Shown one piece after another: positions 17,510 to 21,691 of a DNA stretch of 32,106 nt; within the stretch, counting starts at the first letter, position 1; every line of letters starts with the position of its first letter. This stretch comes from Alphaproteobacteria bacterium (lineage in GTDB: Bacteria > Pseudomonadota > Alphaproteobacteria > UBA11136). Under the pieces are notes generated by a model. That model saw only the letters and a list, made by a program, of their open reading frames with translations. It searched no databases and was not told the DNA's origin. The position numbers were made by a program, and so were the translations under genes. The stretch spans positions 24,615 through 56,720 of the forward strand of contig JASLYJ010000009.1 in NCBI GenBank assembly GCA_030739855.1, read 5' to 3'.

Positions 17510-18516
17510 CCGCCCCCCGGATAAGTGTCGCCAAGACGGGCGTACGAACTCTTACCGTCAACGACGGCGAGGATGGGCTGCGCCTCGACCGCTGGTTCCA
17601 CCGCCATTTCCCTGGCCTCTCCCACGGACGCCTCGAAAAACTGCTGCGCACCGGACAGGTGCGCGTGGACGGCGGCCGGGTCAAGGCGGGCGCGCGCCTA
17701 TCTCCGGGCCAGAGCGTGCGGGTGCCGCCGCTCGGCGCTGAGGCTGTGCACCAAAAACCGCCACCGCCGCCGGTGGATAAATTCGAAGCCAAGGAGCTAC
17801 AAACCCTGGTGCTGCACCGCGACCGCCACGTTCTCGCGCTCAACAAGCCACCCGGCCTCGCTGTTCAAGGTGGCAGCAAGGTGGCACGCCACCTTGATAG
17901 CATGCTCGATGCGCTTAAATTTGGCGCAAAGGAACGGCCACGTCTAGTACACCGTCTCGACAGGGATACCTCTGGCGTTTTGCTGCTGGGGCGCAGCGCC
18001 GCAAGTACCGCCAGACTGGCCGCTGCTTTCCGCGGCCACGAGGTGCGCAAGATCTACTGGGCGCTGGTGGTGGGGACGCCGTGCCCTCGTGATGGGCACA
18101 TTGACCTGGCACTGTCAAAACTGCCACATGGCGGTGGTGAGCGTATGAAGGTTGACCCTAAGTCTGGGAAATTGGCTGCCACCCTTTACGCCACTGTGGG
18201 AACGGCAGGACAGCGCGCAGCTTGGTTGGCGCTGATGCCGCTCACCGGACGCACCCATCAGCTGCGGGTTCATATGGCTGAACTGGGAACGCCGATTCAT
18301 GGAGACGGCAAATACGGGGGCCGAGCCGCCTTCCTTGAGAGGGGGAGGATTTCGCATAACCTCCACCTGCACGCTCGCTCCCTCACATTGCCCAATCCTG
18401 CCGGAGGTATGCTCGCCCTTACCGCGTCGCTGCCCTCCCATATAGCACACAACTGGCATCTCTTCGGATTTGACCCCGACGATGACGGAGATCCCTTCGG
18501 GGACGTAGAGGTTTAA
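17506..18516 (+). CDS. rluC: RluC/RluD-type 23S rRNA pseudouridine synthase
   Basis: This enzyme isomerises uridines to pseudouridine in 23S rRNA. Starting at the GTG that overlaps the preceding short ORF, it has 336 residues. An S4 RNA-binding domain spans about 15-80 ('LRLDRWFHRHFPGLSHGRLEKLLRTG'-like blocks). The catalytic domain carries 'LALNKPPGLAVQGG' and the active-site motif 'HRLDRDTSGVLLLGRS' with catalytic Asp152. 'LTGRTHQLRVHMAELG' near residue 245 is the other family hallmark. The open frame extends into rarA but that part has no similarity. Site specificity (RluC or RluD) cannot be fixed by eye. I call it RluC from its neighbours. Confidence 0.9.
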   Translation: MTAPRISVAKTGVRTLTVNDGEDGLRLDRWFHRHFPGLSHGRLEKLLRTGQVRVDGGRVKAGARLSPGQSVRVPPLGAEAVHQKPPPPPVDKFEAKELQTLVLHRDRHVLALNKPPGLAVQGGSKVARHLDSMLDALKFGAKERPRLVHRLDRDTSGVLLLGRSAASTARLAAAFRGHEVRKIYWALVVGTPCPRDGHIDLALSKLPHGGGERMKVDPKSGKLAATLYATVGTAGQRAAWLALMPLTGRTHQLRVHMAELGTPIHGDGKYGGRAAFLERGRISHNLHLHARSLTLPNPAGGMLALTASLPSHIAHNWHLFGFDPDDDGDPFGDVEV

Positions 18517-18540
18517 CCGCACTACATCTTCCCCTCATTT

Positions 18541-19338
18541 CTAGCGTTTCTTCAACCACTCGCGGATAAGTCTACGCGCGTTTTTAAGTTGAGTAGGGGT
18601 CATTTTTTTCTCAATTAAATCTCGATTACTCCTCGCTCCGTAATTCCCCTGCAAGGCAGCAAGATTCAGCCACATATAAGCACGAGTATAATCTTGTGGG
18701 ACTCCCTGTCCTTTCACATGCATCAGACCCAAATTGTACTGGGCAGAGGTATTTCCTTGTTCTGCAGCAAGTTTGTACCATTGGACGGCGACCTTGCTGT
18801 TTTGAGGAACGCCTAGTCCTTTGTCATACATCCGACCAAGAGTGAACTGAGCACTGGTGTGTCCCTGTCCTGCAGCAAGTTTGTACCATGTGACGGCAGT
18901 CTTGTTGTCTTGGGGAACACCTAGTCCGATATTGTACATCCAACCCAGACTGAACTGAGCAAGAGCATGCCCATGTTCTGCAGCAAGGGTAAACCACTTG
19001 CCAGCAGTCTTGCTGTTTTGGGGAACGCCCAGTCCTCTGCTATACATCCGACCTAGATTGTAATGAGCATTGGCATTTCCTTGTTCTGAAGCAAAGGTGA
19101 ACCACTTGAGGGCGGTCTTGTAGTCCTGTGAAACACCAACCCCATCTCTATACATTACACCCAGATTGTACTGGGCATTGACATCTCCCTGTTCTGCAAG
19201 AGGTTTCCACTCCTTCAATGCAGTTGCATAGTCGCCTCGTAAGTAAGCACTAGCCCCATTCTGGAAGTCAGCAGAAGATGCTGGGCTCCCAACCAACGAG
19301 GATAAGAGGAAAAAGAGAAGGGCGAGTGATTGTTTCAT
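18541..19338 (-). CDS. Secreted Sel1-repeat protein
   Basis: The product has 265 residues from the chosen ATG. It begins with a signal peptide ('MKQSLALLFFLLSSLVGSP', cleavage near 'SSA'). Residues about 30-245 are Sel1-like repeats of 36 residues, each an alpha-helix pair with the pattern 'W-x-LAAEQG-x-AQ-x-LG-MY-x-G-GVPQ'. Five full copies are followed by a partial one and a basic C-terminal helix 'NARRLIREWLKKR'. Such repeats act as protein-binding scaffolds, and the partner here is unknown. Longer starts (ATG at 19356, TTG at 19374) are open but would put residues before the signal peptide. None has a good Shine-Dalgarno. The gene looks richer in A+T than its neighbours and faces rluC tail to tail. 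Confidence 0.85.
   Translation of the reverse strand: MKQSLALLFFLLSSLVGSPASSADFQNGASAYLRGDYATALKEWKPLAEQGDVNAQYNLGVMYRDGVGVSQDYKTALKWFTFASEQGNANAHYNLGRMYSRGLGVPQNSKTAGKWFTLAAEHGHALAQFSLGWMYNIGLGVPQDNKTAVTWYKLAAGQGHTSAQFTLGRMYDKGLGVPQNSKVAVQWYKLAAEQGNTSAQYNLGLMHVKGQGVPQDYTRAYMWLNLAALQGNYGARSNRDLIEKKMTPTQLKNARRLIREWLKKR
18763..19220 (-). repeat. 108-base tandem repeats coding for Sel1 units
   Basis: The element tgcagcaag or a close variant recurs at 18763, 18871, 18979, 19087 and 19195, each exactly 108 bases apart, and the sequence between copies is clearly similar at the DNA level. 108 bases is one 36-residue Sel1 unit. The similarity of the middle units suggests growth by recent unit duplication. 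The outer limits are approximate. Confidence 0.8.
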
Positions 19339-19501
19339 AGGTAAAGCGTGACCCATGATGTGACTGGAGGTCAAAGGAAAAGCTCCATTAGCGCCGCTAC
19401 TTATGTGCTTGAGACTTGTCTTTCAGACTGCGGGCTGCTTTGTTGTGGGTCCGAGAATGGGCTGAGTAGGTATAACTAAGATAACGAAAACATCCACAAA
19501 A

Positions 19502-19671
19502 TTTAAAAAAATCCTCATCGCCCATCACAGTGGAATCACCTGCCGCGTCATCCGTACGGATAAGGCCAAGGGCGTCGAAACTGCGGCTGTATAATTCGAG
19601 GCTGGCCCTCCATCGAAGCCGAATCCGGCGACGGGGTAGAGGTATACCAGAGTATCCTCACTTTCGAGTGG
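19502..19671 (+). pseudogene. Decayed biotin carboxylase subunit gene (acetyl/propionyl-CoA carboxylase alpha), both ends kept, middle lost
   Basis: Read from 19502 in one frame, the sequence gives 'FKKILIA', three changed residues, 'GITCRVIRT', then 'KAKGVETAAV' and a stop at 19592-19594. This matches the N-terminus of biotin carboxylase proteins ([23 protein letters not shown] pattern). Just after, in another frame (19600-19668), comes '[20 protein letters not shown]', which resembles the C-terminal end of the biotinyl domain (AGDSVEVDQVLLTFE type). The original stop may be the TGG at 19669. A normal gene is about 2 kb, so some 1.9 kb is missing. The start codon is also lost (AAA in place of ATG). 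The N-terminal match is strong, the C-terminal one fair. I recall acylphosphatase, the next gene, following this carboxylase gene in some relatives. Confidence 0.7.
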
Positions 19672-19690
19672 CTTTCAGGAGGTAAGGAGC

Positions 19691-19981
19691 GTGAGCGAGA
19701 CTCATTACATAACCTTGCGGGTATGCATTACGGGCCGTGTTCAGGGCGTGTGTTACCGTGCTTGGACCGAAGAGCAAGCCACAGCGCTGGGGCTTAACGG
19801 ATGGGTACGCAACCACCATGACGGCAGCGTAGAGGCCATCTTTTCAGGTCTCGAACGCCGAGTTGAGGACATGATCACTGCCTGTTACCAAGGCCCACCG
19901 TCGGCCCAGGTGGATGGTGTTGAACGTCACGCCTTCAGCGAAGAGGTGGCTCCCGGTTTCCACACTATGCCCACAGTATAG
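19691..19981 (+). CDS. acyP: Acylphosphatase (GTG start)
   Basis: Acylphosphatase hydrolyses carboxyl-phosphate bonds such as that of 1,3-bisphosphoglycerate or acetyl phosphate. The 96-residue length is normal. The phosphate-binding loop '[11 protein letters not shown]' (residues 15-25) holds the essential Arg23, and '[13 protein letters not shown]' holds the catalytic Asn41, the same numbering as in the well-studied enzymes. In place of the common Phe before Arg23 there is Tyr. The GTG start lies behind AGGAGG and a second GGAG. It follows the decayed carboxylase gene directly and now probably depends on that gene's old promoter. Confidence 0.93.
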
Positions 19982-20108
19982 AACGGAACGTACGTAGGGA
20001 GTCGCGGGAACATGGCATCTCTTTCCGGGACCTGTAAGGGTTGTCCTCGGCTCGTGATTCTGCTATCCCCGGCACCTCCAGGTGACATTCCTTTCAAGGA
20101 GCTTTCAA

Positions 20109-20196
20109 GCGGTCGTGGCGGAATTGGTAGACGCGCAACGTTGAGGTCGTTGTGGGATAACATCCCGTGGAAGTTCGAGTCTTCTCGACCGCACCA
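20109..20196 (+). tRNA. tRNA-Leu (anticodon GAG), CCA encoded
   Basis: The acceptor stem GCGGTCG pairs perfectly with CGACCGC, followed by A and an encoded CCA. The anticodon stem CAACG/CGTTG closes the loop TTGAGGT, giving anticodon GAG, which reads CUC and CUU leucine codons. A long variable arm (GTGGGATAACATCCCGT region) marks it as a class II tRNA, and the T-arm has GTTCGAGT. The D-arm contains the usual AATTGGTAGAC sequence. Confidence 0.96.
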
Positions 20197-20299: not shown

Positions 20300-21691
20300 A
20301 TGACTGAGCGCGAAACCCATAATCCTGACGACACGCTAGACACCGAGGGAATTCCCTGGCTCAAGCCAGAGCTTGTTACCCGCGTGGTAGAGGCGCTGGA
20401 ATCTGGAGATCATTCTTTGGTGCGCTCCCTAGTCTCGCCGTTGGGTAGCGCCGACATAGCCGATCTGTTGGAGCCCCTGCGCGCTGACCAGCGCGAGGTG
20501 CTGGTGGAATTGCTACGCCCCGATTTTGATCCGGAAATCCTAGCAGAGCTTGACGAAACCGTGCGTGAGCAGGTTGTAGAACAAATGGGGGCCGAAGAAG
20601 TGGCCGCCGCCATCACCGAGCTCGATTCTGATGATGCTGTAGAGATTATCGAGGATCTCGAGGAAAAAGTTCAGCAGGAGGTTCTTGAGGAAATCCCTGA
20701 GGAAGACCGCGCCATCCTTGAGGACAGTCTCTCCTATCCAGAGGAAAGCGCCGGGCGTATTATGCAGCGCGAGCTAGTGGCCGTACCCACCCACTGGACG
20801 GTGGGCGAGATAATCGATTTACTGCGTTCCGACGAAGATCTGCCAGACGATTTCTACGACCTCTTCATCGTCGATTCCCGCCATCACCCAGTGGGCAGCG
20901 TACCCTTAAGCCGCGTGCTGCGTTCTAAGCGTGAGGAAACAGTGGAGGAGATCATGGACCCGTCACAGAAAGCGGTCTCCGCGCTCATGGATCAGGAGGA
21001 GGTGGCCTTTCTCTTTCGACGCCATGATCTCATTTCCGCTCCGGTGGTGAATACCGATAACCGTCTTGTGGGCGTCATTACTATTGACGATGTGGTGGAT
21101 GTGATCGACGAAGAGGCGGGAGAGGACATCTTGCGTCTGGGTGGCGTGGCGGAAGAGGATTTCTACGGTGCTGTAGTGAATACTACGCGGCGAAGGTTTA
21201 CATGGTTGTTGGTTAACCTTCTCACCGCCTTTCTCGCTTCTCTGGTGATCTTCCAGTTTGAGGACACCATCGCCAGGTTTGTGGCGCTGGCTGTTCTCAT
21301 GCCCATCGTCGCTTCCATGGGCGGTAATGCGGGCACCCAGACTCTGACGGTGGCTGTGCGCGCTCTGGCCATGAAGGAACTAACTCGCACCAATGCCTTA
21401 CGTGCGGTGGGCAAGGAACTTCTGGTTAACGGCGCCAACGGTGTTTTCTTTGCCGTCATCACCGGCCTGGCTGCAGCTTGGTGGTTCGATGACCCACGCA
21501 TGGGCGCCATCATAGCTGCCGCCATGATCATCAATCTGGTGATCGCCGGATTTGCCGGAACTGCTATCCCCTTGGGACTGACCCGTCTCGGCGTGGATCC
21601 GGCTATCGCCTCTGGTACCTTCGTCACCACCGTCACAGATGTAGTAGGTTTCCTGGCTTTCCTCGGCCTTGCCGCCCTATTCTTAGTCTAG
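20300..21691 (+). CDS. mgtE: Magnesium transporter MgtE
   Basis: MgtE is a dimeric Mg2+ channel of the inner membrane gated by cytosolic Mg2+. The 463-residue protein has an acidic N-terminal superhelical domain (about 1-145), a pair of CBS domains (about 150-270, with 'GSVPLSRVLRS' and 'RLVGVITIDDVVDVIDEEAGED'), a linker helix, and five membrane helices from about 290 to the end. The pore signature 'GGNAGTQTLTVAVRAL' lies near residues 340-355, and the conserved Asp of the last helix is at 447 ('TTVTDVVGF'). All parts are complete. The 5' leader of about 100 bases shows no recognisable M-box riboswitch. It follows tRNA-Leu and faces the hydrolase gene tail to tail. Confidence 0.95.
   Translation: MTERETHNPDDTLDTEGIPWLKPELVTRVVEALESGDHSLVRSLVSPLGSADIADLLEPLRADQREVLVELLRPDFDPEILAELDETVREQVVEQMGAEEVAAAITELDSDDAVEIIEDLEEKVQQEVLEEIPEEDRAILEDSLSYPEESAGRIMQRELVAVPTHWTVGEIIDLLRSDEDLPDDFYDLFIVDSRHHPVGSVPLSRVLRSKREETVEEIMDPSQKAVSALMDQEEVAFLFRRHDLISAPVVNTDNRLVGVITIDDVVDVIDEEAGEDILRLGGVAEEDFYGAVVNTTRRRFTWLLVNLLTAFLASLVIFQFEDTIARFVALAVLMPIVASMGGNAGTQTLTVAVRALAMKELTRTNALRAVGKELLVNGANGVFFAVITGLAAAWWFDDPRMGAIIAAAMIINLVIAGFAGTAIPLGLTRLGVDPAIASGTFVTTVTDVVGFLAFLGLAALFLV

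Follow-up and report, generated by a model that had tools for sequence, protein, structure and literature searches.

What gene once filled the short interval in front of an acylphosphatase gene in an alphaproteobacterial genome, and what became of it, is the question raised by this locus. The window, i.e., the whole stretch of DNA analysed, comprises 32,106 nt of Alphaproteobacteria bacterium (UBA11136; assembly GCA_030739855.1, contig JASLYJ010000009.1, positions 24,615 to 56,720 of the forward strand), and its genome (G000) is represented by 1.41 Mb in 109 contigs at 88% completeness. A preliminary description had read positions 19502 to 19671 as the fossil of an acyl-CoA carboxylase gene with both ends kept and the middle deleted, and this reading was borne out by N- and C-terminal matches to the same family, each the best in the window. 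The feature is almost certainly a deletion pseudogene of pccA, which encodes the biotin carboxylase/biotin carrier subunit of propionyl-CoA carboxylase. Matches were assessed against a profile of 661 positions derived from 14 intact pccA genes collected from related alphaproteobacterial genomes, with a profile HMM run on the six frames of 19375-19693 and a position-weight scan of all six frames across the whole window (64,004 positions for the N-terminus and 64,094 for the C-terminus).

The 5' part of the relic (19502..19606, + strand) corresponds to codons 2-36 of pccA and translates as FKKILIAHHSGITCRVIRTDKAKGVETAAV*FEAG. Biotin carboxylase N-terminal homology was evident here by all three approaches: the profile HMM matched profile residues 2-35 with 23.5 bits, the position-weight scan ranked the segment first of 64,004 positions (+42.8 versus -8.8 for second place), and a search of the entire genome with a whole pccA protein matched it with an E value of 6.8e-5 (residues 2-36, 60% identity) across one TAA. 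This in-frame stop lies at 19592-19594, and pccA homology runs 4 codons beyond it. Thus, the earlier assignment of the segment as a biotin carboxylase N-terminus stands, while its extent, previously ended at the stop, needed lengthening.

The 3' part (19609..19668, + strand) represents the final 20 biotinyl-domain codons, read in a frame different from that of the 5' part and aligning with the exact last 20 positions of the profile (642-661 of 661). The identification as a biotinyl-domain C-terminus in another frame had been correct; its boundaries required adjustment, as it begins 14 nt after the first segment's stop rather than within 10 bases of it, is 5 residues longer than the 15 residues first reported, and ends at 19668, not 19671. 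Taken alone, the HMM score of these 20 residues is low (0.3 bits; E = 0.047 for the six-frame stretch 19375-19693), as would be expected if only the 5' piece were a pccA fossil and the 3' match had arisen by chance. Against this, the segment ranked first of 64,094 positions in the position-weight scan (27.7 versus 6.8 for second place); across 20,000 dinucleotide shuffles of 19606-19690, scores peaked at 15.0 and never reached that of the segment. Furthermore, the match falls on precisely the terminal positions, on the right strand and at the expected place before acyP, and 12 of its 20 residues are common to the pccA end of L133 (PARU01000024.1, a metagenome-assembled genome). A chance C-terminus is accordingly very improbable.

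The two HMM matches follow one another on the + strand in pccA order (profile 2-35, then 642-661), and at the deletion junction (19607..19608, + strand) the N-terminal alignment stops, the C-terminal one starts and the frame changes. With only 2 nt separating the segments, an intervening sequence of about 605 codons (1.8 kb) has been lost and the frame is broken. The true breakpoint could lie a few nucleotides to either side and is not fixed to the base, since every intact N-terminal pccA compared came from outside the genus and family. No direct repeats were found at the junction in the present sequence.

Both ends of the remnant have decayed. The start codon position (19499-19501) reads AAA, and upstream of the relic the frame is free of ATG, GTG, and TTG as far back as the preceding stop codon; the original stop has been replaced by TGG directly after 19668, in agreement with the earlier statement that start and stop were both mutated. 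The ANRGE motif reads AHHSG, although NRGE is invariant in the 14 functional genes apart from one E-to-E neighbour change, and just 8 of the 17 invariant residues survive. Over 55 codons, the relic differs from functional genes at 18.3 first and 15.3 second codon positions, compared with 12.7 and 7.7 among functional genes themselves, whereas third positions are equal (33.4 versus 32.2). Raised differences at positions 1 and 2 and not at 3 are what a loss of purifying selection would predict. The locus thus combines disabling mutations with a relaxed substitution pattern, as pseudogenes do, and holds no open frame with the ATP-grasp, BT, and biotinyl domains (AMKM biotin site) of a functional PccA, only the two ends in different frames. 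From its sequence, the relic is predicted to yield no carboxylase subunit.

This decay also bears on whether the genome suffered a deletion at all, as in an assembly of 109 contigs the two ends of an intact pccA might have been brought together by a misjoin or chimera. The substitution pattern argues against a misjoined intact gene, as do the lost start, in-frame TAA, altered ANRGE motif, and lost stop, which together affect both ends. In addition, no further pccA fragment was found anywhere in the assembly, and the flanking genes keep their ancestral order. We consider a misjoin, like a chance C-terminus, highly unlikely, and a genomic deletion in pccA is the reading followed below.

Biotin carboxylase N-termini are found in several enzymes, and it is therefore genomic position that decides which gene was lost. 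In relatives, pccB, pccA, and acyP are contiguous (L045, L048, L052, L054, L057, L058, L135, and L139), and in L133 the order is rarA, rluC, pccB, pccA, acyP, tRNA-Leu(GAG), mgtE, and parE, with two additional genes between rluC and pccB. The window carries the L133 order minus pccB and pccA. Its anchors are an apparently intact acylphosphatase gene, acyP (19691..19981, + strand; PF00708, 80.1 bits), which is pccA's downstream neighbour in relatives, retains the motifs GRVQGVCYR and WVRN, and has R23 and N41 invariant in alignment; a tRNA-Leu (GAG) gene (20109..20196, + strand), the same tRNA that precedes mgtE in relatives; and an mgtE-like gene (20300..21691, + strand) with 89% identity to a same-genus genome and 68% to a same-family genome. 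A contig from a member of the same family (G003, locus L134; JABJES010000124.1) opens in the last 36 pccA codons and continues with acyP, tRNA-Leu, and mgtE. Relatives thus keep pccA before acyP, and the two intact orthologues scanned, those of L045 and L133, both contain a PCC BT domain (PF18140) as well as a biotinyl domain. The acyl-CoA carboxylase proposed earlier could in this way be narrowed to pccA, and the position of the relic is, judged from gene order, ancestral. No pccB remnant was detected upstream of the relic, where a pccB profile gave only scores below zero over 18481-19700. When the region was compared at the DNA level with 40 relatives, useful matches, all short, were confined to the N-terminal piece and acyP; in the literature we found nothing specific on pccA loss or the pccA-acyP gene order.

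A Sel1-repeat protein of 277 aa with five repeats is encoded between rluC and the relic (18541-19374, - strand), and in G002, one of two genomes of the window's own genus considered here (G001 and G002), another Sel1-repeat gene follows pccB (L113, 1020-1826, + strand; 27% identical to that of the window). lipB lies between acyP and tRNA-Leu in G003 and just before tRNA-Leu in G002; in the window, the corresponding gap (19982-20108) measures 127 bp, of which approximately 20027-20108 matches the G002 leader. Searches of the window's genome and of G001 recovered neither LipB (TIGR00214) nor an LplA/LipB catalytic domain (PF21948); for a cell that may require lipoyl enzymes, a missing lipoyl transferase or ligase of this family is odd.

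The location of the 170 bases directly upstream of an apparently intact acyP, whose transcription would now have to start within or before them, suggests that they might have taken on a new role as a small RNA or as a regulatory leader of acyP. Apart from the tRNA, however, there was no Rfam match, the only structure seen was a small imperfect palindrome (19545-19566), and the substitution pattern agrees with release from constraint. Reuse is improbable, if slightly less so than a misjoin or a chance C-terminus, and a pccA pseudogene remains the preferred reading.

The preliminary description had viewed the fossil as a sign of catabolic gene loss, provided that no other copy existed. The genome-wide pccA search revealed no second pccA in the assembly; besides the relic, it matched only AccC, AccB-like, and CarB-like places. 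AccC (G000:C14), just downstream of the AccB-like biotinyl-domain match, shares the biotin carboxylase N-terminal domain with the relic but is intact (449 aa), lacks the PCC-type C-terminal half, and is the sole remaining biotin carboxylase. The two carboxyltransferase matches are both of the short AccA/AccD kind, so that all carboxylase genes found belong to fatty-acid synthesis (AccA, AccC, and AccD). PccB, methylmalonyl-CoA mutase, MeaB, and PrpD of the methylcitrate route were likewise not found in the assembly, although at 88% completeness single absences other than that of pccA are not proof by themselves. Together, these results support the earlier suggestion, with a loss that extends to the route from propionyl-CoA to succinyl-CoA.

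Within the genus, G002 has PccB, the mutase, and MeaB, and G001 has the mutase, MeaB, and a PrpD-family protein; pccA was seen in neither assembly, the pccB and lipB-mgtE contigs of G002 ending nearby. Inside pccB, two G002 contig ends (L112, 4207-4616, and L113, 1-410) share 410 bp with 97% identity, an overlap that resembles an assembly break due to strain variation. Because the G002 contigs break at critical places, the data do not support any particular sequence of losses. Tentatively, and with the odds somewhat against it, the relic may mark a late stage in the stepwise loss, within the genus, of the route from propionyl-CoA to succinyl-CoA, with neighbouring lipB removed in the same region. 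If so, comparison within the genus could reveal in what order pathway genes disappear.

A model for the locus is proposed in which an ancestral rluC-...-pccB-pccA-acyP-tRNA-Leu-mgtE arrangement would have lost pccB entirely and about 1.8 kb of the pccA interior, probably in a single deletion event, so that 35 codons from the 5' end would have come to adjoin 20 codons from the 3' end in a different frame. Free of constraint, what was left would then have decayed, acquiring the mutated start, stop, and invariant residues and the in-frame TAA. Compared with alphaproteobacterial PccA, the relic keeps the first 35 and last 20 residues, the orientation, and the place between the (lost) pccB and acyP, but it lacks about 605 codons, the start, and the stop, and it is frame-broken and non-coding. 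Deletion pseudogenes are familiar in reduced genomes, and with these the relic shares an internal deletion, end fragments, ancestral neighbour order, and the absence of functionally linked genes. It is the same in kind, and the type of event is ordinary; the uncommon feature is the survival of two legible ends within only 170 bases, a lucky late stage.

The relic provides direct sequence evidence that this alphaproteobacterium, whose genome is small, has lost propionyl-CoA carboxylase, beyond mere absence from an incomplete assembly. As a metabolic consequence, propionyl-CoA would no longer be carboxylated to methylmalonyl-CoA, and the known pathway predicts that propionyl-CoA derived from odd-chain fatty acids, valine, isoleucine, and methionine would be unusable by this route. 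For the study of pathway erosion, the relic offers an intermediate stage.
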